Assembly: GCF_029201445.1 (NCBI RefSeq)
Contig: NZ_CP102381.1
Location: forward strand, 806,001 to 870,000
Source: Thiomicrorhabdus lithotrophica
GTDB taxonomy: Bacteria > Pseudomonadota > Gammaproteobacteria > Thiomicrospirales > Thiomicrospiraceae
Direction: 5' to 3'
Length of the DNA stretch: 64,000 nucleotides
The position numbers and the translations under genes are program-made. The notes under the pieces were generated by a model. That model had not been told where the DNA came from. It ran no database searches and saw nothing but the letters and a program-made list of their open reading frames with translations. Below, piece by piece: positions 1 through 12,777 of this stretch. Positions within the stretch are counted from its first letter, which is position 1, and each line of letters starts with the position of its first letter.

Positions 1-766
1 AATCATCGATCATTTTGCGTTAGACTCACTCTGGGAAACGCAAGTTCGTAAAAAATTTCAATTCAAAATGGTGGCCATAGATGGACAAGCAGATCGTACC
101 CATGCTGTGGATGCATTAATCGATCCTTCTGTGTCGATTTCGGAAACAAAGTGGTCAGGCCTGCTTAGCGTTGAAACTAAATTATTTACTGGGTTGTCTT
201 TTGTTCCGATTCAGGAGCGTTATTACGCTATGAGCGAATCGGTTTCAAGAGGAAATGATTTGCATACTGTGTTGGTGGCCTTTGGAGGCGTTGATGCTGA
301 AGAGTATTCGTTACTGACGCTTCAATCTTTAATTAAATTGCCGATACAGTTAAAAGTACTAATGGTGGTCGGACGGAACTATCCGAACTTAGAAGCGCTG
401 AGTAAACTATGCGATCAATATGAACAGGTTGAATTGTTTGTGCAAACTGATTTAATGCCCGAGTTAATGTCTCAAGCAAATTTAGCTATTGGCGCAGGTG
501 GCACTATGGCATGGGAGCGTTGTGTTATGACTCTACCGAGTTTAGTTGCTGAAATTGCAGATAATCAAAAACAGCAGGTTTTAAGTTTGGAAAAGCTTGG
601 TCTTGCAATTAATTTAGGGCGGTCTAAAACCGATTATGTTGCAAATTTGGATGCGGCTTTAAATCTAATTATAAACCAGCCGAGTCTATTGCACGAGATG
701 ACCAACAATCTTCAAACTTTGACGTCAAAAATCGAACCAAATGCTTGGAAAAAAGTATTTTTATAA
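1..766 (+). CDS. pseG: PseG, UDP-2,4-diacetamido-2,4,6-trideoxy-altropyranose hydrolase (5' end outside window)
   Basis: The frame is open from the window edge: codons from base 2 read as coding (IIDHFALDSLWE) in frame with the internal ATG at 68, so the gene begins upstream and about 255 of an expected ~340 residues are visible. PseG removes UDP from the bacillosamine-like intermediate of pseudaminic acid synthesis in the cytoplasm and has a glycosyltransferase-B-like fold. Seen here are the family motifs AIDGQADRTH (DDxxDR-type) and, near the C terminus, AIGAGGTMAWERC followed by an NQ pair, the nucleotide-sugar binding region. The N-terminal catalytic His region is off the window. The gene lies 11 bases before the methyltransferase gene and 3.6 kb before pseI, which supports the pathway call. 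Confidence 0.85.
   Translation, partial: IIDHFALDSLWETQVRKKFQFKMVAIDGQADRTHAVDALIDPSVSISETKWSGLLSVETKLFTGLSFVPIQERYYAMSESVSRGNDLHTVLVAFGGVDAEEYSLLTLQSLIKLPIQLKVLMVVGRNYPNLEALSKLCDQYEQVELFVQTDLMPELMSQANLAIGAGGTMAWERCVMTLPSLVAEIADNQKQQVLSLEKLGLAINLGRSKTDYVANLDAALNLIINQPSLLHEMTNNLQTLTSKIEPNAWKKVFL
156..163. repeat. Core of the iterated palindrome (CAGGCCTG only)
   Basis: Eight-base core inside pseG, read TCA GGC CTG (SGL). The weakest copy in the window; the outer C/G and A/T pairs are missing. Confidence 0.4.
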
Positions 767-777
767 GGACTGTATAA

Positions 778-1668
778 ATGGAAAATAATACTTCTAAATT
801 GAGCCAAAATTCGCTAGGTTACTGGGAAGTGACAGAAAAACCTACGGATGAGATGTTACAAGAATATTATGCTCAGAAGTATTATCAGCAATGTAAAGGC
901 GCACATCAAAAAGTCTATAGTCAAGATGAACTTGCTTTTTATGAAGCTAAAGTCATACAACGTGCTGCGATGATCAATCGTTTATTACCAACGCTTGAGA
1001 ATAAGACTTGTTTGGATGTCGGTTGTGGAGAGGGTTTTGAATTGCAGTATTTTAAGAATAATGGTTGGGACGTTAAGGGTATAGATTTCAGTTCTGACGG
1101 TATGGCAAAGCAAAACCCTAGTTGTTTAAATTTACTTGAAACAGGCAATGTATACGAACTTTTGGATAAAGAAATTGAGTCTAATAAGAAGTACAGTGTT
1201 GTCTGGCTGCAGAATGTTTTAGAACACGTAATCGATCCCCAGGCATTATTACAAAAGTTATTAAAGTTAGTTGTACCTGATGGTTGTGCGGTTATAACTG
1301 TACCAAATGATTTTTCAGCTTTACAAAAACATGCCCTAGAAACAGGTAAAATTGATCGCGATTTTTGGGTAGCACTGCCAGACCATTTGTCTTATTTTGA
1401 CGCAAAAAGTCTGCGAGCCACTAGCGAAGCCAATGGTTGGTTTTGTCATTCAGTTACTGCGGACTTTCCAATTGATTGGTTTTTAATGAATGAGTCTTCA
1501 AATTATATTCAAAACAACCAAGTTGGTAAAGCGGCACATCACGCGCGTGTTGATTTAGAAAACTTGATTCAACAGCAAGATATGAATAAGGTGTTAGATT
1601 TTTGGGTGGCTTTAGCCGGCATTGGCATGGGACGCAATATTACAGCATTTATTAGTCCAAAAGATTAA
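778..1668 (+). CDS. Class I SAM-dependent methyltransferase in flagellin-glycan locus
   Basis: 296 residues. Motif I, LDVGCGEGFE, lies at about residues 79-88 and is followed by GIDFS, the acidic strand-2 end that binds the SAM ribose. WLQNVLEHV at about 141-150 is the post-motif region typical of Methyltransf_23 / UbiG-like enzymes. There is no signal peptide or membrane segment, so it should be cytoplasmic. It sits between pseG and the ComA-ComB fusion in a tightly packed run, so it probably O- or N-methylates the nonulosonic acid, its acyl substituent or a precursor. The substrate cannot be read from sequence. Start is the ATG 11 bases after pseG, preceded by an AAGGA-like ribosome site (ataaggac). 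Confidence 0.75.
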   Translation: MENNTSKLSQNSLGYWEVTEKPTDEMLQEYYAQKYYQQCKGAHQKVYSQDELAFYEAKVIQRAAMINRLLPTLENKTCLDVGCGEGFELQYFKNNGWDVKGIDFSSDGMAKQNPSCLNLLETGNVYELLDKEIESNKKYSVVWLQNVLEHVIDPQALLQKLLKLVVPDGCAVITVPNDFSALQKHALETGKIDRDFWVALPDHLSYFDAKSLRATSEANGWFCHSVTADFPIDWFLMNESSNYIQNNQVGKAAHHARVDLENLIQQQDMNKVLDFWVALAGIGMGRNITAFISPKD

Positions 1669-1702: not shown

Positions 1703-3169
1703 ATGAATAGTCAAAGTTTTCCATTTATTAATTTACCAGTGAGAACTCGTAAACCGAGAACTTCTGGTGTAACGATGGTGTTGGATAAACATCTGGGAAT
1801 GCATGAAGCAATGGACCTCGTGGAAACGGCTGGTGCATATATTGATATCGTCAAGCTGGGGTGGGGAAGTGCCTTGCTCTATGACGTTGAAATCTTAAAA
1901 AGTAAAATTCAACTGTATAAAAAACATAAGATAAAGGTTTGTACAGGAGGGACCTTTATGGAGCTAGCATTTGAACAAGACAAAGTTGACGAAATGCTGA
2001 TTCAAGCCAAAAAATTAGGTTTTGATGCTGTGGAAGTTTCAAATGGTATTCACCCAGGAATGACAGCTGAGCTAAAACAGAAATTGATTCGTCAGGTTGT
2101 GAGTCATGGTTTTTATACCCTGTCAGAAGTAGGTAAAAAACTGACCGAAGAGGATTCAGCAATGACAATTCAAGATCGTGTTTCTGAAGTCTTAGCGGAT
2201 CTTGAAGCAGGTTCTGATAAGGTGATTATGGAATCAAGAGAAGCGGGTAATGTCGGTATTTTTGATGAAAACGGTAAAGTTAATACCGAGTTAGCTAACT
2301 GCTTATTTCAGCAAATGGATCCAAACGATATTATTTGGGAAGCACCAAAAAAAGAACAGCAAGTATGGCTTATACATCAGCTAGGGCGTGATGCAAACAT
2401 TGGTAATGTTTCTCCATCTGAAGCGATGAGCCTTGAATCTTTACGTTTAGGGGTGCGTGGTGATACCTTCCGAGATAACCTATCAGATGCCACAATTGTG
2501 TATCTTGAACTGGGTGTAGGTGGTGCATTAAGAGCTCAGCGTAGGGATGATATTGTCGTGGTTGTTGATGCCTTACGTGCTAGTGCCACGATTATTCAAT
2601 GTTTTGAGCAGGGTGCAAACGAAGTTAAACCCGTTGTCAGTGCGGATCAGTTGCATGGAGAAATCACGATTGGCGAGCGTGGTGGAGAAAAGTTGCCTGG
2701 AGCGACCTATGGTAATTCACCAATAGAAATCCAAAAGCAATCTTTTAAAGGGAAGAGCATTGTTTTATCTTCGACTAATGGTGCGGAATGTATCTGTACT
2801 TCAAAAGGTGAGAGTAACAAAGTGTTAGTTGGTAGCGTAATTAATGCTCAAGCCGTTGGAAAAAAAGCATTAGAAATAGCTTTGGAACAGGGTAAGAACA
2901 TTACTTTATTGGCTGCTGGTCGTAATAACCTACCTGCCATTGAAGATCGGATTGGGGTTACTGAAATTCTAAAACATATTGGTAGCCCAATTGTACGAGG
3001 GCTGTTAGATCCACATTACAGTAAAAACATTGAACGGGATTTTCTAGCCAGTGACAGTGGTATGAACTTAGCAAAGCTGGGTTATGTACAAGATGTTATC
3101 CATTGCTCAAATGTTGACATCTCTCAACTTGTACCTTGCTATAACGGTGAGACGTTAAAGCTAGTTTAG
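1703..3169 (+). CDS. ComA-ComB fusion: phosphosulfolactate synthase / 2-phosphosulfolactate phosphatase
   Basis: 488 residues, two enzymes in one chain. Residues ~1-255 match the ComA TIM barrel (VKLGWGSALL, CTGGTFMELA, EVSNGIHPG, DKVIMESREAGNVGIF, IWEAPKKEQQ), which adds sulfite to phosphoenolpyruvate. Residues ~280-488 match ComB (VDALRASATI, GERGGEKLPGA, GNSP, STNGAECI, LLAAGRNN), the Mg-dependent phosphatase giving sulfolactate. The lengths of the archaeal ComA and ComB sum to about this size. In methanogens these are the first steps to coenzyme M, and ComA also makes sulfolactate in Bacillus spores. No later coenzyme M gene is nearby; the neighbours are pseG, an ATP-grasp gene and pseI. 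The longer frame from 1622 overlaps the methyltransferase, so the ATG at 1703 is preferred. Confidence 0.85.
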   Translation: MNSQSFPFINLPVRTRKPRTSGVTMVLDKHLGMHEAMDLVETAGAYIDIVKLGWGSALLYDVEILKSKIQLYKKHKIKVCTGGTFMELAFEQDKVDEMLIQAKKLGFDAVEVSNGIHPGMTAELKQKLIRQVVSHGFYTLSEVGKKLTEEDSAMTIQDRVSEVLADLEAGSDKVIMESREAGNVGIFDENGKVNTELANCLFQQMDPNDIIWEAPKKEQQVWLIHQLGRDANIGNVSPSEAMSLESLRLGVRGDTFRDNLSDATIVYLELGVGGALRAQRRDDIVVVVDALRASATIIQCFEQGANEVKPVVSADQLHGEITIGERGGEKLPGATYGNSPIEIQKQSFKGKSIVLSSTNGAECICTSKGESNKVLVGSVINAQAVGKKALEIALEQGKNITLLAAGRNNLPAIEDRIGVTEILKHIGSPIVRGLLDPHYSKNIERDFLASDSGMNLAKLGYVQDVIHCSNVDISQLVPCYNGETLKLV

Positions 3170-3195
3170 CTTACTTTAAAGAAATTGATTAATTG

Positions 3196-4410
3196 ATGAA
3201 ACAGCAAAAAACATTACTGATTATTGGTGCAGGGTTTGAACAAGTTCCTGCAATAAAGATGGCCAAATTAATGGGCCATAAAGTGGTTGTTACTGATTTA
3301 AACCCTCAAGCCGCTGGTGTAAAGTTCGCCGATGATTTTGGTTTGGTTAGCACCAATGATAAACAGGGTAATCTGATTTTTGCTCAGCAGCAGAAAATTG
3401 ATGGCGTGATGACTTTAGGTTCTGAACTTGCGGTGCCAGTGGTTGCATTTGTTTGTGAACAACTAAATCTTCCTGGTCTCTCATCTGAGACGGCTTTAAA
3501 AGCTACCAATAAAAACGTTATGCATGAAGCGTTCATTGCTGGCGGCGTTCCTACGCCACATTCTAATAAAATTAACCAGCTGTCTGAGTTGCAAGAATTT
3601 GTCGAGTCAAATGGTTGGCCGGTTGTTGTTAAACCGAGCGATAGTAGTGGGCAGCGCGGTATCGGGATTTTTCATGAGGGTGGGGATTTAGCCTTTGCAT
3701 TAAAAGATGCTGTTAAATATTCATCAGATGGCTATGCCATTGTTGAGAATTATATTGATGGACCAGAAATTAATGTCACAGCAGCCGTTCAAGATGGAGA
3801 AATTGAATTTTTATCGTTTTCACATCGTGTCACAGCTTCGTCACCACACTTTGGAATTGCTATAGAGCATAGAGCGCCTGTTGCAATTAGCTCTGAAAGA
3901 CTTAATCAAGTGAAGCTGGCGGCAATTAAAGCAATAAAAGCGATTGGTTTAACCAATGGTATTGCTTATCCACAAATTATTTCTTCTGTTGATAGAGGGG
4001 CGCAAGTCTTAGAAATTGCGGCGCGTATTCCTGGTGGTTACATGCGTGAAGTAGCTTTGGTATTAAGTGGTATCGATATGATTGAAGTGGCAATTAGACA
4101 AGCTCTAAATGAATCTTTATCGTTGAGTGAGTATGCCAAAAACCAACCAAGTGAAGCGGTCGTTGTAAAATTTTATACACAGCTTGATCTGGGAGAAGGG
4201 GTGGAGAAAATTACTCGGATAGCTGGATTTGATGAAGTAATTACCAGGCCTGGTGTGTTTTTAGCGAACTGTCGTCTTAAAGCACTGGATACAGTACCCC
4301 CTTTAGAAAGTTCTACCGCTCGTTTTGGTGCATTGATTGTTCGTGCGGACTCTTCTGAAGAGGTGCAAACTCGCTTACAAGAGGCAATGGCTGCGGTGGA
4401 GGTGTTATGA
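3196..4410 (+). CDS. ATP-grasp carboxylate-amine ligase family protein
   Basis: 404 residues from ATG 3196 (a TTG lies one codon earlier). N terminus is a Rossmann-like pre-ATP-grasp domain (LLIIGAGFEQVPAIKMAK, VVVTDLNP). The ATP-grasp fold follows: VVKPSDSSGQRGIG near residue 145 is the nucleotide-binding loop, IVENYIDGPEINV the adenine-side strand, and LEIAARIPGG near 275 the Mg-binding strand. The family (PurK, carbamoyl-phosphate synthase, D-Ala ligase and amino-acid ligase types) couples ATP cleavage to joining a carboxylate to an amine or other nucleophile through an acyl phosphate. Lying between the sulfolactate fusion and pseI (4-base overlap with pseI), it is the natural candidate to attach an acyl group such as sulfolactate to an amino sugar. 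That role is an inference. Confidence 0.7.
   Translation: MKQQKTLLIIGAGFEQVPAIKMAKLMGHKVVVTDLNPQAAGVKFADDFGLVSTNDKQGNLIFAQQQKIDGVMTLGSELAVPVVAFVCEQLNLPGLSSETALKATNKNVMHEAFIAGGVPTPHSNKINQLSELQEFVESNGWPVVVKPSDSSGQRGIGIFHEGGDLAFALKDAVKYSSDGYAIVENYIDGPEINVTAAVQDGEIEFLSFSHRVTASSPHFGIAIEHRAPVAISSERLNQVKLAAIKAIKAIGLTNGIAYPQIISSVDRGAQVLEIAARIPGGYMREVALVLSGIDMIEVAIRQALNESLSLSEYAKNQPSEAVVVKFYTQLDLGEGVEKITRIAGFDEVITRPGVFLANCRLKALDTVPPLESSTARFGALIVRADSSEEVQTRLQEAMAAVEVL
4243..4254. repeat. Iterated palindrome ACCAGGCCTGGT
   Basis: Perfect 12-mer inside the ATP-grasp gene, read ACC AGG CCT GGT (TRPG), the only copy in this frame. Next copy downstream is 12.7 kb away. Confidence 0.9.
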
Positions 4411-5405
4411 GTTTATTTATCATCGCTGAAATGTCTGCTAATCATAATAATGATTATGAATTGGCATGTGAAACGATTCGTCAAATAGCAACCACGGGTG
4501 CTGATGCCGTTAAAATTCAAACGTTTAAAGCAGAGTCTTTAGCTTTAAATGTTGATAATGAATACTTTGGACCAAAAACGGCAGGCGCGTGGAAGGGATG
4601 GCGACCTTGGGATTTGTATCAAAAAGCAGCCATGCCATATGAATGGCAAGCAAAATTAAAAACCTTAGCTGAAAGTTTAGGACTTGTATTTTTTTCAAGC
4701 CCTTTTGATTTAGAAGGTGTCGACTTTCTAGAAGAACTTAAAGTGCCGATGTATAAAATTGCATCGTTTGAAATAAATGATATTCCACTCATTGAAAAAG
4801 TAGCTTTAACAGGTAAGCCAATTATTATGTCAACAGGGGTGGCAACCTTAGAGGATATTGAACTTGCGGTGAAAACTTGTTTGGATGTTGGTAATACTGA
4901 TATCACTCTACTTAAGTGTACTTCTGAATACCCAGCTAAAATTGAAGATGCTAACTTAAAAACGCTTTTGGATTTAAAGGTTCGTTTTAACGTTAAGGTT
5001 GGTTTATCAGACCACACAATGGGTTCTATGTTGCCGATAGTCGCTGTAAGTTTAGGTGCCGAAGTCATTGAGAAACACTTTATTGTAGATCGAAGTTTAG
5101 GCGGTTTGGACTCTGCATTCTCGATGGAAACCTCAGAGTTTAAACAGATGGTCGAAGATGCACATGCCGCTCAAAGGGCTTTAGGGCAAGTCAGTTATCA
5201 AAAAACTGAGTTCGACCATTCTCGTAAACGTTCATTGTTTGCATCTCAGGATATTGCCGCTGGCGAGCATCTTTCAAAAGATAATATTAAGTCATTAAGG
5301 CCCAATGTCGGCCTAGAGCCGAAACACTTCAAAAGCCTTCTAGGAAAAGTTGCGGCCACTTCGATTAAAAAGGGCCAACCAATTACATTCAATTTATTGG
5401 TCTAA
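4407..5405 (+). CDS. pseI: Pseudaminic acid synthase
   Basis: 332 residues. NeuB-type TIM barrel: IIAEMSANHNNDYELA at the N terminus, ADAVKIQTF, FSSPFDLEGVDFLE, MYKIASFEINDIPLI, STGVATLEDIE, LLKCTSEYPA, GLSDHTMG and EKHF. Residues ~270-332 form the C-terminal SAF (antifreeze-like) domain (KRSLFASQDIAAGEHL). NeuB-family enzymes condense phosphoenolpyruvate with a six-carbon sugar to give a nine-carbon nonulosonic acid. The WxxW plus PYEW segment at about residues 63-80 and the presence of pseG favour pseudaminic over sialic or legionaminic acid. ATG overlaps the ATP-grasp stop (ATGA), indicating translational coupling and a shared operon. Confidence 0.85.
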   Translation: MSLFIIAEMSANHNNDYELACETIRQIATTGADAVKIQTFKAESLALNVDNEYFGPKTAGAWKGWRPWDLYQKAAMPYEWQAKLKTLAESLGLVFFSSPFDLEGVDFLEELKVPMYKIASFEINDIPLIEKVALTGKPIIMSTGVATLEDIELAVKTCLDVGNTDITLLKCTSEYPAKIEDANLKTLLDLKVRFNVKVGLSDHTMGSMLPIVAVSLGAEVIEKHFIVDRSLGGLDSAFSMETSEFKQMVEDAHAAQRALGQVSYQKTEFDHSRKRSLFASQDIAAGEHLSKDNIKSLRPNVGLEPKHFKSLLGKVAATSIKKGQPITFNLLV

Positions 5406-5504: not shown

Positions 5505-7997
5505 ATGCAAGGAATTACTCTTTCTGACGTACAAGAAAATAAATTTGGTGAGAAATACTTTAGTGAAATTAACCACTTAGCTTTCGAGACGCTTTCTTCT
5601 GATGTCATTTTCAATAAACTATATTCAAATTTGCTAGATAAAGAAGAACACCTATACATTATAGTTGGTACTGATTCAGGTCTGTTATTTAAGCACTTTC
5701 AAAATAAAGAGCTACCTAAAAATCTCAAACTAATTTTTGTTGAGTTTTCTGAGGTAATTCAAGCGACAGGGTTGCTAGAATCGGGTACAGAGCTTTGGGA
5801 AGGTAACGTCCGTTTAGTCACGCCTGATTTTAATTTTGGTCGTATTGGTTCAGCTTTTAACTCCTATGTCTTGCGCCGTAAGATAGATTTAATAAAGTCT
5901 CTTGGTGTTATTGATGCACAGTCTAATTCTGCATATAGAGAGTTGTGGACGCAGATGGAAGTAGCCTTTAACGCTTTTAGGCGGAGTGAATTTAATGCTC
6001 AAAGTACACGTGTTTTTGAAATCGAGCGTGTTTTAAATGCTGCAGACAATATCATTCCTGTCAGAGAACTTGCCAATACATTACAAGGTCGTGATGTTGT
6101 GGTCTTAGGTGGCGGTCCAACCTTGGATGATTCTATTGATTGGTTGCGTGAAAATCAACACCGTTTGGTCATATTTGCTGCAGCCCGAATTGCGAAACGT
6201 TTAATCAATGAATCAATTGTTGCGGATTTTTATGTCACGGTTGACCCATTTGATTGGAGTTTTGATAACTCGAAAAGCGTTATGGCCTGTGCCGATGAAA
6301 GCGTTTTAATCCATAGTTTTCATGCTCAGCATAAAATTGTCAGTCAATGGAATGGTCTTGCAACCTTCTCTGGTGCTCGTTACGGCTGGAAGGTTGAAGG
6401 AGAATTGCCAAATATTGAAACTCCTGGCCCAACGGTGACTAATTCAGCAATGCATATTGCTTGTTCATTAGGTGCTAATAGAGTTTTTCTTTCCGGCATT
6501 GACTTTTGTTTTGCACATGGTCTAACGCATGAATCGGGCAGTGAAGAAGCGAAAGTTGCAGATACCTTTGGTTTTAATACACGCGCTAAGCTTGAAGATA
6601 ATGCTGGTAATCTGACTGAAACCAGTGATGATTTCTACGGTGCTTGGCAGTCAATGGAGAGTTCCGTAAAACTATATCAAGCTGCTAGAAAAATTGATAT
6701 TTTTAACCTGGGTTTGCATTCGGCAAAAATTAAAGGGGTTGAATATATCTCTTGTGAAGATGTGACCTTTCAAAAAGAAGATAAAATTGATTTAACGCAA
6801 TTAGTTAGAGACAAGCTTAAATTGAGTGTTGAGGATAAATTTGATTTTGCAAAAAAAACGGTCAAAGATTTACAAGTTCAATTGAAACGTTTTAGTAAGC
6901 TACAGAAGCTAGCTCATGATGGTCATAGTGTTGCGGGTAAGCTTTACGATGAAAAAACGTTAGAACCACGTGATAAACAGATGATACGTGTTCAGAAGTT
7001 GAGAAAAAAAATTGATAACCTGGTTGCTGAAGATGGTGACATGATTATGAATTATCAAGCTAAGTTTTTTTACGACTCATTTAAACCCGTTGAAGATGAA
7101 TCAAATATGTCTCCTAAGGAGATTGAGGAGCAACTTAAAGCCTTTTTTAGTGGAGTTGAAAAACTTTCTGAACATTTTGTCGATGCCATTAAAGATGGTA
7201 TCAAGCGTGCCGAATTACGACGAGATGAATTGAGTCAAAAAGTATTGCCTTCTGCTTTATTTTCACAGTGGGAAAAATGGCATGAATTCGGACGTTCAGA
7301 GCAGTGGTTAAAGTGGCATCCTGATACAGAATTGAATTCTGAAGAGCAAGCTGTTCTGGATAAGGCTTTAAAGAATTATCAAAATGAATATGAAAAACAA
7401 GATCATAACTATAGCAATCGAGTTCAAAAAAGAATCAGTAATGTCTCTACCCTTTTGACGAGGGCTGAAAAAGCTTATGACAACAAAGATATCGAAGAGC
7501 TTAATGGGTTGATTAAGCATTCGAAGACCCTGGATGCAGCGAAAGAGTCACAGAAACAGTCATTCATATTTTTGCTGGAAGGTATGCTTGATGAGATTTT
7601 AGACAAGCCAGAATCGGCAATGCAAAGTTATTTGCAAGTTGAAATGCCAAGTTTAAGACATAAGGCTTTAAAACGAGCTTTAACGCATTTTATGAATACT
7701 AAGAATTATGAGCAAAGCATGTTAGTTTTGGAGCAGTTATGTAGTTTTTCTTTGGAATACATGGTTCCATATTCTGACATGCTTAATATGATGGGGCAAA
7801 AAATCTCTGCTGCTCAAATCTTGCAAATGTATCTAACGCAGCACCCAGAACATTATGCTATTCAGAATAAAATGGCGCAATTATTGATGGATCTTGGTGA
7901 GACTGAGGCGGCCTTAGCCACAGCGAATTTTGTCTTAGAGAATGAACCCACGGATAAGACTGCATTGCATATTAAGCAAGAGCTTAGCATAGTTTAA
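5505..7997 (+). CDS. Maf-type motility-associated glycosyltransferase (DUF115)
   Basis: 830 residues. A DUF115 / MAF_flag10 core spans about residues 175-400, with VVVLGGGPTLDDS near residue 198 and FYVTVDPFDW near 240. GPTVTNSAMHIACSLGA and FLSGIDFCF are typical of the sugar-nucleotide binding half. The C-terminal ~400 residues are helical and highly charged, ending in TPR-like repeats (about 690-830). Maf proteins transfer nonulosonic acids such as pseudaminic acid to Ser/Thr of flagellin before export. The position between pseI and the flagellin genes fits this. A 99-base gap follows pseI, so it may be part of the pse operon or have its own promoter. Confidence 0.8.
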   Translation: MQGITLSDVQENKFGEKYFSEINHLAFETLSSDVIFNKLYSNLLDKEEHLYIIVGTDSGLLFKHFQNKELPKNLKLIFVEFSEVIQATGLLESGTELWEGNVRLVTPDFNFGRIGSAFNSYVLRRKIDLIKSLGVIDAQSNSAYRELWTQMEVAFNAFRRSEFNAQSTRVFEIERVLNAADNIIPVRELANTLQGRDVVVLGGGPTLDDSIDWLRENQHRLVIFAAARIAKRLINESIVADFYVTVDPFDWSFDNSKSVMACADESVLIHSFHAQHKIVSQWNGLATFSGARYGWKVEGELPNIETPGPTVTNSAMHIACSLGANRVFLSGIDFCFAHGLTHESGSEEAKVADTFGFNTRAKLEDNAGNLTETSDDFYGAWQSMESSVKLYQAARKIDIFNLGLHSAKIKGVEYISCEDVTFQKEDKIDLTQLVRDKLKLSVEDKFDFAKKTVKDLQVQLKRFSKLQKLAHDGHSVAGKLYDEKTLEPRDKQMIRVQKLRKKIDNLVAEDGDMIMNYQAKFFYDSFKPVEDESNMSPKEIEEQLKAFFSGVEKLSEHFVDAIKDGIKRAELRRDELSQKVLPSALFSQWEKWHEFGRSEQWLKWHPDTELNSEEQAVLDKALKNYQNEYEKQDHNYSNRVQKRISNVSTLLTRAEKAYDNKDIEELNGLIKHSKTLDAAKESQKQSFIFLLEGMLDEILDKPESAMQSYLQVEMPSLRHKALKRALTHFMNTKNYEQSMLVLEQLCSFSLEYMVPYSDMLNMMGQKISAAQILQMYLTQHPEHYAIQNKMAQLLMDLGETEAALATANFVLENEPTDKTALHIKQELSIV

Positions 7998-7999
7998 GT

Positions 8000-8956
8000 A
8001 TGTCCGTTCAACTAGAGTTTATTGAGTCTAAGTGTATTTCAAATCAAGCACCTCACAGTGCTTTTACTGATTTGATTTTTTATCAAAATGAGTGGTATTG
8101 TGCTTTTCGTGAAGGTTCAAGTCACATGTCTTTAGATGGCCAGGCAAAGGTTTTAAAATCGAAAAATGGCCTGGCCTGGGATGAGTTTGCTGTTCTCACA
8201 TGGCAAGGAGGGGATGTAAGAGATCCTAAGTTTGTAATTAGGCATGATGGCAAGCTTTTAATTACCGTAGGCGTTCGTCTTGCGGTTCCCACCGTACTTT
8301 CTGAAAAAATATTCTCAACAAGCTGGTTGTTTGATTCTGATAATGGACTTTCTGGGCCATTTTATTGTAATACCAGTAGCGGCACATGGCGATGGGGGCC
8401 GACTCAGTATGGTTCTGATATTTTTAGTGTGGGGTATGCGGGTAAAGACCTTGAAGGTTGTTTATACAAGTCTGCTGATGGAAAAAATTGGCAGGCATAT
8501 GTGAGACCATTTTTTCCAGAATCTCCTTGTTTTACAAATGAATCTTCATTGGTGTTTACTCAATCCGAGACTGCTTTTTGTTTGTTACGTCGTGACGGTG
8601 CAAATTGCTCCGGTCTTTGGGGAGTCGCAAAAAAACCATACACTCGCTGGAACTGGTTTAATCTGCCTTTGGCAATTGGTGGCCCGAAGTTAATTGAGCT
8701 TTCTACAGGTCAATTAATTGCCTGTTTTAGATTGATTGAAGTCGATTCTGAGGGGGCGCTGGAGGCAAAAACAGTTTTATATGAGATTTCTCCAGTCGGT
8801 GAAATGACGTTTTTAATTCAATTGCCCTCGGATGGTGATACGAGCTATGCAGGCATGGTGGAATGTGATAAAGACCTTTGGGTAAGTTACTACTCTTCTC
8901 ATGAAGAGAAATCTTCAATTTATATTGCCAAATTACACATCAATTTGACGAATTAA
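8000..8956 (+). CDS. Sialidase-like beta-propeller protein, probable glycan-related
   Basis: 318 residues, starting three bases after the Maf stop, so almost surely co-translated. No signal peptide is visible, so it should be cytoplasmic. Sialidase-like signs are WYCAFREG at 32-39, VRDPKF at 73-78 (an FRDP/RDP-type strand), and two Asp-box-like hairpins, SKNGLAW at 54-60 and SADGKNW at 158-164. The repeated W/F strands fit a six-bladed propeller. Family members are exo-sialidases or other glycosidases. Here it could trim or proofread a nonulosonate glycan, or only bind it. The complete catalytic Arg triad cannot be confirmed by eye. Confidence 0.55.
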   Translation: MSVQLEFIESKCISNQAPHSAFTDLIFYQNEWYCAFREGSSHMSLDGQAKVLKSKNGLAWDEFAVLTWQGGDVRDPKFVIRHDGKLLITVGVRLAVPTVLSEKIFSTSWLFDSDNGLSGPFYCNTSSGTWRWGPTQYGSDIFSVGYAGKDLEGCLYKSADGKNWQAYVRPFFPESPCFTNESSLVFTQSETAFCLLRRDGANCSGLWGVAKKPYTRWNWFNLPLAIGGPKLIELSTGQLIACFRLIEVDSEGALEAKTVLYEISPVGEMTFLIQLPSDGDTSYAGMVECDKDLWVSYYSSHEEKSSIYIAKLHINLTN

Positions 8957-9384: not shown

Positions 9385-9477
9385 ATATAGAGAAGGCGGG
9401 AAACACTGCCTCATATAAAAAAGTATTACACATACACACAAATGAAAGTACTAAAAGTACTTCTAGGGAGAACTATC

Positions 9478-10395
9478 ATGGCAATGGTAATTAATACAAA
9501 TATGGCATCTTTGAATGCTGTTCGAATGTTAAATGGAACACAAAACGCACAACAAAGCGCGATGGAACGTTTAACAAGTGGTTTACGAATCAATACAGCC
9601 GCAGATGATGCAGCTGGATTAGCAGTTGCAACAGGTATGACTACACAAATTCGTGGTACAGATATGGCGTTGCGAAATGCTAACGATGGTGTTGGATTAT
9701 TGCAAACCTTGGACGGTGCTTCAGAAGAAGTGGTAAGTATGTTTCAAAGAATGCGAGAGCTTGGTATACAGGCATTGAACGGAACCTACAACTGGGAAAA
9801 CCGTAAGCAGATGGATTTGGAATTTACACAGTTACAGAATGAGATTCAAAGAATTTCTGATACGACTAAATTCAATGGCATGAATATTATGAATGCTTCC
9901 AGCTTTTCGGCTTTAACTGCAGCATCGGTTTTTCCAGCGGCTTCGGTTGGTTTTAGTATTCCTCTTTCAGGTATGAAGTTACACATTGGGTGGGAGGCTG
10001 AAAGTCTTAACCAAATGAAGATTCCATTAATGAATTTTTCAACGCTTTCAGCGATTAATACTGCGGCGTTTGGTTTAGCAGCATCAGGATCTTCTGATTA
10101 TACCGCTAATGTTAGCTTTATAAGATCTACCCTAAATAGAGTGGATACCGCTATTTCTGTATTAAAGACAATGCGTGCTTCTTGGGGTGCTTTGCAGAAC
10201 CGTTTGGAATATACGATTTCCAACTTGCAAAATGTGCAAGAAAATATTGAAGCCTCAAGATCGCGAATTATGGATGCTGATTTCGCTACAGAAAGTGCCA
10301 ACTTAGCAAGAACACAGGTTCTGCAACAAGCAGGAATGAGTATGTTAAGCCAGGCAAACCAACAATCACAACAAGTTTTGCAGTTGCTGCAATAA
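9478..10395 (+). CDS. Flagellin 1
   Basis: 305 residues. Conserved N-terminal D0/D1 helices (MAMVINTNMASLNAVRML, MERLTSGLRINTAADDAAGLAVA, LRNANDGVGLLQT) and C-terminal D1/D0 helices (IEASRSRIMDADFATESA, ARTQVLQQAGMSMLSQAN). The central region is only about 100 residues, so the outer D2/D3 domains are essentially absent. Ser/Thr-rich patches there (SSFSALTAAS, ASGSSDYTAN) are plausible O-glycosylation sites for Maf. The ATG at 9478 follows an AGGGAG site and gives the canonical MAMVINTN start. An in-frame ATG at 9442 would add 12 atypical residues and is rejected. Confidence 0.95.
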   Translation: MAMVINTNMASLNAVRMLNGTQNAQQSAMERLTSGLRINTAADDAAGLAVATGMTTQIRGTDMALRNANDGVGLLQTLDGASEEVVSMFQRMRELGIQALNGTYNWENRKQMDLEFTQLQNEIQRISDTTKFNGMNIMNASSFSALTAASVFPAASVGFSIPLSGMKLHIGWEAESLNQMKIPLMNFSTLSAINTAAFGLAASGSSDYTANVSFIRSTLNRVDTAISVLKTMRASWGALQNRLEYTISNLQNVQENIEASRSRIMDADFATESANLARTQVLQQAGMSMLSQANQQSQQVLQLLQ

Positions 10396-10660: not shown

Positions 10661-11575
10661 ATGGCAATGGTAATCAACACAAATATGGCGGCTTTGAATG
10701 CCCAAAACTCTTTGGCGTCAACGTCTAAAATGCAAAGCCAGTCAATGGAACGATTGACTTCTGGTTTGAGAATTAACGGAGCATCTGATGATGCGGCGGG
10801 ACTTGCAGTAGCAACGGGTATGAGTACCCAAATTCGAGGTACTGATCAAGCGATTCGTAACGCGAATGATGGTATGGGACTGTTGCAAACTGCTGATGGA
10901 GCCTCGGAAGAAGTGGTTAGCATGTTGCAACGTATGCGTGAACTTGGCATTCAGTCAATGAACGGTACCTATAACTATGATAACCGTAAACAAATGGACT
11001 TAGAGTTCAACCAGCTACAAAAAGAAATTCAGCGTGTTGCTGATACCACTAAGTTTAATGGTTTAAATATTATGAATGCCTCTAGTTTCTCCGTTTACAC
11101 GGCAGGATCTGTAGTAAGTGCGGCAGGATTAGGTTTTAGTACTGGTATGAGTGGGCTAAAGCTCCAAGTTGGTTGGGAAACTGACAGTGCTAACACTATG
11201 AAAATTGCTTTGATGAACTTTTCATCATTATCAGCAATTGGCGCTAATATCACTATTTATGCTAGTGGTGCATCAGCGTTTAGTGCAAACGTATCTATGG
11301 CTAAATCAGCTATTGCAGCAATTGATAATGGATTGTCGGCAATTAAAATGATGCGTGCTGGCTGGGGTTCTTTACAGAACCGTCTAGACTATACTGTATC
11401 TAACTTGACGAATGTTAATGAAAATATTACAGCTTCTAGATCTCGAATTGAAGATGCTGATTTCGCTAAAGAAAGTGCAAACTTAGCTAGAACACAAGTT
11501 TTACAACAAGCGGGTATGAGTATGTTGTCTCAAGCCAATGCTAATTCACAAAATGTTCTCTCTTTATTGAGATAA
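10661..11575 (+). CDS. Flagellin 2
   Basis: 304 residues, a close paralogue of flagellin 1 (same N-terminal MAMVINTNMA, same MERLTSGLRIN and ADFAKESANLARTQVLQQAG blocks) with a divergent central segment (SSFSVYTAGSVVSAAGLG, TIYASGASAFSANV). An AAGGAG ribosome site lies 8 bases before the ATG, stronger than that of flagellin 1. It ends NVLSLLR rather than QVLQLLQ. Tandem flagellins are common in polar flagella, where they often differ in expression level and filament position. The two genes look like an old duplication rather than a recent one, since synonymous codons differ widely. Confidence 0.95.
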   Translation: MAMVINTNMAALNAQNSLASTSKMQSQSMERLTSGLRINGASDDAAGLAVATGMSTQIRGTDQAIRNANDGMGLLQTADGASEEVVSMLQRMRELGIQSMNGTYNYDNRKQMDLEFNQLQKEIQRVADTTKFNGLNIMNASSFSVYTAGSVVSAAGLGFSTGMSGLKLQVGWETDSANTMKIALMNFSSLSAIGANITIYASGASAFSANVSMAKSAIAAIDNGLSAIKMMRAGWGSLQNRLDYTVSNLTNVNENITASRSRIEDADFAKESANLARTQVLQQAGMSMLSQANANSQNVLSLLR

Positions 11576-11729
11576 ATAGAGTGAGCTTTTAAGGGGGGAT
11601 GCAGAATGTTACCTGGTTCTTCCTTAAAGGATGCTAATGGTATAATAATGAATATGGGGTTGTTAGCTTAGATAGTTCAATAGCGCTTACATTATTAATC
11701 ATGGTTTGACTGACGTCTTATTTAATGGT

Positions 11730-11756
11730 TAAAGTTTGTTATATTTATAACGACAT
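11730..11756 (+). promoter_or_regulatory. Possible sigma28 promoter of flaG
   Basis: TAAAGTTT at 11730-11737 is a perfect -35. At the canonical 11-base spacing the -10 region is AACGACAT, matching GCCGATAA in only about half its bases. Late flagellar genes such as flaG are usual FliA targets, but the -10 is poor. Confidence 0.35.
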
Positions 11757-11780
11757 AATGTCATTAAAAAGGAGGTAGTT

Positions 11781-12185
11781 ATGGATGTTAATTCAGTAAA
11801 CCCACTAGCTTCTAGTCAAGGGGTTAAATCAACTGCAGAGTTGAATGAACCGACTAATCTAAAAGTTATAACTGAATCATCAGCCGTCGCTCCAAAATCA
11901 GATACTCAGAAAGAATCAACAGAAGTATTAAAAGCCCAAGCAGATTCATTGAATAATGTCTTGAGCCAGCTTGGTCAAACGGTTACTTTTGATGTGGATG
12001 AAAGCACTCAGTATTCTGTGGTGAAAGTAGTTGATAAAACGACGGATGAAATTATTAAACAGTACCCAAATGAAGGATCTTTGCAGATGATGAAAAACAT
12101 CCAAGATTATCTCGATTCGGTACAAAAAACAGGTTCATCAAGTAAAGAAGGTTTGACAGGTACCTTATTCAATGAAATCATATAG
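11781..12185 (+). CDS. flaG: FlaG family protein
   Basis: 134 residues. The N-terminal half is low complexity (Ser, Thr, Lys, Glu). The FlaG domain occupies about residues 60-125: NVLSQLGQTVTFDVDEST, VVKVVDKTTDEIIKQYPNE and MMKNIQDYLD. In Vibrio, Pseudomonas and Campylobacter, FlaG lies between flagellin and fliD and limits filament length or affects its stability by an unclear mechanism. A strong GGAGG site precedes the ATG. The next gene is a second member of the same family only 29 bases on, so the pair is likely co-transcribed. Confidence 0.85.
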   Translation: MDVNSVNPLASSQGVKSTAELNEPTNLKVITESSAVAPKSDTQKESTEVLKAQADSLNNVLSQLGQTVTFDVDESTQYSVVKVVDKTTDEIIKQYPNEGSLQMMKNIQDYLDSVQKTGSSSKEGLTGTLFNEII

Positions 12186-12214
12186 ATGATTATGCGTTGA
12201 ATATTGGAGCACGT

Positions 12215-12661
12215 ATGAACGAAATAACGAGCATACAACCTAATAACTTGATTAAACCATCTTATGGTAAGCCTGAAAAACCCATCACCTCCAGTGACTT
12301 TAAGGAGGTAAATAATCAGAATTTGCAGCAAGAAATTGCAAGCGAAAAAACTGATTTTAGCAAACTAAAGAATCAAGAGGTTGATGGCCAAATTGACGTT
12401 GCTGAGTTAGATAGCCAAATGGCAAGTCTTAATTCTCAGCTGCAGAAACTTCAAAACTATTTGAAGTTTGAAAGAGATGAAGATTCCAATCGAATGGTGA
12501 TTTTTATCAAAGACAGTGAAACTGATGAGATTATTCGTCAGATTCCTACAGAGGACTTTTTAAATATATCTAAAAGCATTACTCAGTATTTAGATGTGAA
12601 TAAACAAATCTCTGAAAAAGTTTCACCGCCCGTTGGTATGTTTACCAATGAAACTGTATAA
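12215..12661 (+). CDS. Second FlaG-like protein
   Basis: 148 residues from ATG 12215, chosen because GGAG lies 5 bases upstream; an in-frame TTG at 12197 has no ribosome site. The C-terminal half repeats the FlaG pattern: LQNYLKFERDEDSNRMVIFIKDSETDEIIRQIPTE then SITQYLD, alignable with the preceding gene. A coiled-coil-like segment (MASLNSQLQKLQ) precedes it. It looks like a tandem duplicate of flaG that has diverged strongly outside the conserved core. Its function is presumably related to filament control, without direct evidence. Confidence 0.75.
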   Translation: MNEITSIQPNNLIKPSYGKPEKPITSSDFKEVNNQNLQQEIASEKTDFSKLKNQEVDGQIDVAELDSQMASLNSQLQKLQNYLKFERDEDSNRMVIFIKDSETDEIIRQIPTEDFLNISKSITQYLDVNKQISEKVSPPVGMFTNETV

Positions 12662-12692
12662 GATATGGCGGTAACAGTTCCCTTGTGTGTTT

Positions 12693-12719
12693 AGCGGTCT
12701 TTTGGCCGCTTTTTTTGTT
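12693..12719 (+). terminator. Terminator after the flaG pair
   Basis: AGCGG (12693-12697) and CCGCT (12706-12710) pair around a short loop, followed by seven T and then more T. It separates flaG from the sigma54-driven fliD unit. Confidence 0.8.
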
Positions 12720-12777
12720 TTTTTTATTCCTTCCTATCTAAAGAAATTCTTCGTTATGCCGTTATCCTTAATAAGCT

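Follow-up and report, generated by a model that had tools for sequence, protein, structure and literature searches.

The gene at the centre of this analysis lies in a 64,000-nucleotide stretch of the Thiomicrorhabdus lithotrophica genome (NZ_CP102381.1, positions 806,001 to 870,000), hereafter the window, and carries ComA and ComB domains in a single chain. It belongs to an operon that reads, in order, PseC, PseF, a Pse-associated methylase, PseG, the methyltransferase MT2, the ComAB fusion, an ATP-grasp ligase, PseI, an MptE-like/Maf-type protein, a conserved protein and two flagellins (Table 1). The genes 5′ of the window (PseC, PseF, the methylase and the start of PseG) were read from locus L003, which contains the whole PseG gene (11642-12766; TIGR03590, 240.7 bits, over the cut-off). 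Both PseC (571.5 bits) and PseF (329.4 bits) score over their curated cut-offs, and the methylase, just outside the window, matches TIGR03587 with 288 bits. The run of genes that starts with PseC and ends with PseI is tightly packed, with intergenic gaps of no more than 34 bases, and the genes directly upstream of the operon look flagellar by eye. The first-pass annotation had described the fusion as flanked by pseG, a methyltransferase, an ATP-grasp gene and pseI, all ahead of a Maf gene, and family profiles recovered every one of these. The MptE-like/Maf-type protein is presumably a flagellin glycosyltransferase. Homologues of the conserved protein that follows it were found by tblastn, among the loci fetched, near Maf or Pse genes (L101, L103, L106, L107, L111, L112, L114 and L115).

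Table 1. Genes of the pseudaminic acid (Pse) and flagellin operon within the window.
Feature	Coordinates	Strand	Basis
PseG, UDP-sugar hydrolase	2..766	+	TIGR03590, 166 bits on the in-window part; 5′ part precedes the window
SAM methyltransferase MT2	778..1668	+	PF13489, 77 bits
ComA-ComB fusion: phosphosulfolactate synthase and ComB-family phosphatase	1703..3169	+	family profiles, model, residue comparison
ATP-grasp carboxylate-amine ligase, proposed sulfolactate:4-amino-sugar ligase	3193..4410	+	PF02786, LAL_C2
PseI, pseudaminic acid synthase	4407..5405	+	TIGR03586, 448.2 bits (cut-off 340)
MptE-like/Maf-type protein, probable flagellin glycosyltransferase	5505..7997	+	PF01973, 118.5 bits
Conserved protein without a Pfam family	8000..8956	+	tblastn homologues in family loci
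Flagellin, likely target	9442..10395	+	PF00669, PF00700
Second flagellin, likely target	10661..11575	+	ORF resembling the first flagellin

PseB is not found in the window operon. It is present elsewhere in the genome, at another Pse locus (L099; 555.5 bits), and with it the Pse biosynthesis set PseB/C/F/G/I is complete in the genome, the four members in the operon all scoring over cut-off. This second locus (L099 7196-15621) holds PseB together with PseC-, PseG- and PseI-like genes and, between PseG and PseI, a gene that Pfam marks as formyltransferase-like, a gene content that suggests an N-formyl Pse.

The earlier reading of the central gene as one 488-residue chain, ComA first and ComB second, held up. 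Its ORF is uninterrupted by stops in translation, residues 14-254 match PF02679 (288 bits, E 5.4e-86), residues 279-481 match PF04029 (136 bits against a cut-off of 26.4, E 1.2e-39), and the predicted structure matches solved ComA and ComB folds. The ComA half reaches the cut-off of the NCBIfam model arch_ComA (TIGR03849; 284.2 bits against 280). The ComB half falls below the equivalog cut-off of TIGR00298 (129.9 against 175.05 bits) and is, by its sequence, a divergent member of the ComB family rather than a TIGR00298 equivalog. An AlphaFold2 model, the structural comparison with ComA and ComB proposed by the first-pass annotation, was built from 17 sequences with a mean pLDDT of 88.3; in Foldseek it matched Methanocaldococcus jannaschii ComA 1qwg (TMt 0.93), 9cm1, a designed protein derived from ComA (0.92), Bacillus subtilis 1u83 (0.91) and ComB 1vr0 (0.79 to 0.81, the latter for 1vr0_A). 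The fusion is no misreading, since a chain with these two domains and a linker of equal length recurs in four further genomes, at 52-72% identity.

Loss of key residues was looked for through invariant columns, rather than a list of known catalytic residues, using seven unfused ComAs (two solved, five from uncharacterised loci) and six ComBs (three solved, three from uncharacterised loci). The window fusion retains 39 of the 48 columns invariant across the ComAs and 18 of the 21 invariant across the ComBs. All of the invariant charged residues are kept in both halves; the retained ComA positions include K51, E87, E142, K146, E177, R179, E180, E213, R248, R252 and D254. The twelve changed positions are mostly mild substitutions (for example T to S, F to M and I to V), with two that are not, G30 to H and G409 to N. 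Judged from sequence and model, both halves look intact. This bears on the possibility that the ComA half has drifted to add another nucleophile to phosphoenolpyruvate (PEP), making a different lactate-like acid that would still be ligated to Pse. We consider such drift improbable: the charged residues are retained throughout, the fold is close to that of 1qwg and the ComB partner is fused to it, although TIGR03849 is only narrowly reached, the ComB half is under its cut-off, and a Pse cluster with ATP-grasp, HAD phosphatase and MT2 genes (L106, described below) would suit a glycerate-type acid.

The window genome (2,516,205 bases) contains a single ComA over cut-off, with a second match of 19.4 bits under it, a single ComB, and no match to ComD (TIGR03845), the sole further coenzyme M family searched; these results agree with the earlier statement that no other coenzyme M gene is present. 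Coenzyme M synthesis was accordingly judged unlikely because no ComD match was found, and the coenzyme M operons seen elsewhere look different. In the Methanosarcinales operon L118 the same two families occur, and its ComA is 45.7% identical to that of the window, but ComA and ComB are separate genes there and are followed by ComC- and ComDE-like genes, whereas in the window they are fused and no ComD was found. In L030, which we take to be the bacterial coenzyme M type, two lyases follow ComA. ComA and ComB also serve in the production of spore sulfolactate.

The fusion was found in five genomes representing at least two families: the window genome, Thiomicrorhabdus sp. Milos-T2, Hydrogenovibrio sp. 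UBA650, a further genome of the class sample (G328) and a Halothiobacillaceae MAG (L117). ComA is present in three of the 62 genomes of the order sample, namely the window genome, Milos-T2 (G032) and UBA650 (G033). Of the 369 genomes in the class sample, ComA was matched in 14 and exceeds the cut-off in 13, and by inspection only the window genome and G328 carry it in fused form. A scan of genome contigs, which added the Halothiobacillaceae fusion, returned eight loci, three with the fusion and five in which no fusion was seen (L122 from tblastn only). A search of 398 genomes of the phylum at 1e-30 matched the window genome and just one more, which has ComA alone.

A search for fused ComA-ComB near pseI had been proposed from the window sequence, and all five fusions found lie within a Pse cluster, where this ATP-grasp ligase and MT2 recur each time; the L117 contig begins inside MT2, so that this copy is truncated, and L116 is broken off at either end. 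Two gene orders are seen, MT2-ComAB-ligase-PseI and MT2-PseI-ComAB-ligase, and ComAB and the ligase are adjacent in both. In L117, PseB, PseC, PseF and PseI score over cut-off and PseG under it (126 against 153.55 bits). It could be argued that ComAB makes sulfolactate for some other use, such as coenzyme M, an osmolyte or export, and that its place in the operon is incidental, coenzyme M synthesis being a known use of ComA and ComB as in L118. With every fusion inside a Pse cluster, a constant ligase partner and no TIGR03845 match in the window genome, we regard that explanation as highly improbable.

A shared, specially adapted PseI was looked for and not found. In a tree of 31 rows (29 different), for which the tool warns of long branches, the PseIs of the five fusion clusters require two changes and form one group in 0% of 200 bootstrap trees. 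Because these PseIs are not one clade, no single PseI fitted to a new acyl group is seen, and what stays constant appears to be the pairing of ComAB with the ligase. MT2 is more widely distributed, with homologues in two Pse clusters of the family that have no ComAB (L106 and L107).

PseH, the acetyltransferase of the Pse pathway, was not found in the ORF lists of the five fusion clusters as far as their contigs reach. TIGR03585, the PseH model, has no match at E 0.001 in the window genome, Milos-T2, UBA650 or G328, and in the fifth fusion genome (G427, the source of L117; 1.2 Mb) a single match scores 27.9 bits against a cut-off of 93.1. Taken alone, this absence is weak evidence, because 17 of 60 family genomes likewise have no match at E 0.001, TIGR03585 is one of many GNAT models, the UBA650 genome is 83% complete and G427 has its sub-cut-off match. 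The matches in the other 43 family genomes are mostly far under cut-off, as expected for the broad GNAT family. Among the operon genes scanned with profiles there is no acyltransferase family besides, and none of the genes from PseC to PseI scored as an acetyltransferase.

The stretch between PseG and PseI is more informative. PseI scores over cut-off in 24 of the 60 family genomes (60 of the 62 in the order sample), and PseH does so in ten, all of them among the 24; three more (G001, G002 and G004) have a TIGR03585 match of 70 to 75 bits adjoining PseI, and ComAB is present in three of the 24. A formyltransferase-like gene occupies the stretch in G031 and at the second locus of the window genome, by Pfam, and in G026 and G034, by likeness. 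In G012 (L106 6310-9677) it holds an ATP-grasp gene, a HAD phosphatase, a TylF-like methyltransferase and MT2, a set that could be a methylglycerate-type acyl route, and in G054 a WbqC-like gene, MT2 and an amine-oxidase-like gene. The survey covers the PseI-bearing genomes apart from G055 and G011, with G039 cut by a contig end. Since relatives hold such varied acyl enzymes there, the stretch looks like a place of acyl-enzyme exchange, filled in the window by ComAB and the ligase.

The ligase itself is an ATP-grasp enzyme by family profile (PF02786) and by its solved-structure matches, the nearest solved chains to its model (pLDDT 81.6) being 4dim and L-amino acid ligases such as 3vot. Its substrates are not readable from the sequence, and we infer them to be sulfolactate and an amino sugar. 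Its distribution follows that of the fusion. In the 60 family genomes, searched at 1e-20, a relative of at least 58% identity occurs in exactly three, the same three that have ComAB, and the two further matches are only 23 and 25% identical. In the order of G328, relatives above 40% identity occur in two of 27 genomes, G328 and G430, the latter probably the L117 MAG, the other genomes giving weak ATP-grasp matches. Among the 369 class genomes, 14 match at 1e-25; apart from G328 and the window genome itself, none exceeds 40% identity. Of the remaining twelve, six were looked at (L157-L162, with L159 and L162 viewed only via query-protein searches). In L158 an ATP-grasp gene about 32% identical to the window ligase lies with a TPP enzyme, a short-chain dehydrogenase and a methyltransferase beside flagellin-like and Maf-type genes. 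The ORF starts in L157, L160 and L161 are partly alike by eye.

From these gene contents we propose, with a probability of roughly 0.6, that the operon makes a pseudaminic acid bearing sulfolactate as an N-acyl group and destined for flagellin. The individual reactions, taken from family membership, and likewise the acyl site and the flagellin target, are put forward as predictions. The ComA half would join sulfite to PEP to form phosphosulfolactate, and the fused ComB half would strip the phosphate to give sulfolactate. The ATP-grasp ligase would then activate the carboxylate of sulfolactate with ATP and form an amide with the 4-amino group that PseC leaves free on the sugar, standing in for PseH, which uses acetyl-CoA. 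MT2 may O-methylate the sulfolactyl group or the sugar, a weak step in the scheme because MT2 homologues occur without ComAB in L106 and L107. PseG would free the sugar, PseI would add PEP, PseF would form the CMP-sugar and the Maf-type enzyme would pass it to flagellin. The expected product, Pse5Ac7-sulfolactyl, is calculated to have the formula C14H22N2O11S and to add 426.094 Da to a glycopeptide, which is 109.967 above Pse5Ac7Ac (316.127), or 440.110 Da once methylated; a further computed increment is 454.126 Da, and the oxonium ion is expected at m/z 427.102. The first-pass annotation had left open whether sulfolactate is a building block of a new sulfonated sugar backbone or of an acyl group; the intact fusion, the Pse cluster in all five cases and the paired carboxylate-amine ligase favour an acyl group on Pse in the place of that added by PseH, and the backbone is less favoured.

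Flagellin glycans of other bacteria provide partial precedents for this arrangement. Clostridium difficile type B flagellin carries a sulfonated glycan containing taurine, with taurine-Ala-Gly on Fuc3N (PMC5207245, PMC5207246), and the ATP-grasp gene CDR20291_0245 is required for its sulfonated cap (PMC5207246). The earlier statement that no flagellin glycan of this kind had been described therefore does not stand (PMC5207245): sulfonated flagellin glycans have a precedent in the taurine cap, and the sulfolactate route is the new part. The two systems are alike in a flagellin sulfonate borne on an amide chain and in an ATP-grasp gene; they differ in that the C. difficile group is taurine-Ala-Gly on Fuc3N, with ComA, ComB and Pse not figuring in the accessible parts of its description.

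In Shewanella oneidensis, loss of the ATP-grasp gene SO_3265 (sfm) shifts the mass of flagellin and makes cells spread less on soft agar, with swimming retained (PMC3765264). The sfmABCDE genes resemble the window operon in serving a gammaproteobacterial flagellin with a Pse-like sugar and in having an ATP-grasp gene and a methyltransferase, but a TPP enzyme and a reductase replace ComAB, and sulfur does not enter the accessible part of that account (PMC3765264). The content of L158 matches this operon, a likeness of gene content rather than of alignment with SO_3265 (PMC3765264). In Campylobacter jejuni, Pse can carry a 2,3-di-O-methylglyceryl amide at N-5 (PMC3068675). Here too, in the accessible text, a hydroxy-acid amide replaces acetyl and is O-methylated, but the acid is glycerate, the position is N-5 and, on the authors' hypothesis, the exchange follows acetylation (PMC3068675).

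These precedents also lend some weight to the view that sulfolactate is made for the operon and placed elsewhere: on another sugar or a hydroxyl, at N-5 rather than N-7, or first on an amino acid through the ATP-grasp enzyme. The dimethylglyceryl group of C. jejuni is at N-5 (PMC3068675), in the S. oneidensis flagellin a mono-N-acetyl Pse-like sugar bears an outer unit of 236-264 Da, according to the accessible part of that report (PMC3765264), and the proximity of the window ligase to amino acid ligases makes an amino acid intermediate conceivable. We nevertheless find a placement elsewhere unlikely, since N-7 would then stay free, no PseH or other acyltransferase family having been found among the operon genes scanned. 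In the open-access literature no co-occurrence of phosphosulfolactate with pseudaminic acid was found, and the co-occurrences of sulfolactate and flagellin look unrelated at first sight.

If sulfolactate is indeed the N-acyl group, a pathway familiar from the making of coenzyme M and from Bacillus spores has been turned to a new end, giving flagella a strong, pH-independent negative charge. A sulfonate would join the N-acyl groups of nonulosonic acids, inorganic sulfite would be linked to a surface glycan, and some of the Pse pathways that run without PseH would be accounted for.

Other ComA genes raise the question of whether ComA serves more generally to sulfolactylate surface glycans, a hitherto unnoticed role that would have arisen on separate occasions and in two forms. 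In one, the ComAB fusion and an ATP-grasp ligase would take the place of PseH within the Pse clusters of flagellin; in the other, a Bacillus-type ComA would act with a histidine phosphatase in polysaccharide clusters that hold ligases. The latter is represented in two other genomes of the class, by gene clusters of polysaccharide-like appearance. In L029 (1677-4182; G290) a PAPS reductase directly precedes a Bacillus-type ComA, which is followed by a glyoxalase-fold gene, a histidine phosphatase and two ATP-grasp genes, and in L026 (8451-10202; G356) the same ComA, glyoxalase-fold and phosphatase set occurs with an AMP-binding enzyme. Their gene content suggests that these sets would supply the synthase and phosphatase, and in L029 also the sulfite, for the transfer of sulfolactate into other surface glycans. 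The two clusters are large, however, with no single ligase standing out, and for most other ComA genes of the class sample no sugar genes were noticed nearby or the view was only coarse. We therefore hold the general use tentatively, with the balance tipped slightly against it.

Two further ComA contexts were observed. A Legionella lytica plasmid (L123 6622-11493) encodes a 970-aa chain combining an AMP-binding domain, a carrier domain and ComA, with a class I/II aminotransferase before it and ComB after it; this set might make a sulfonated product, for which a lipid is our guess. In G088, two ComA-like places in one genome (L018, L020, L021 and L022) contain internal stops and are probably decayed copies.
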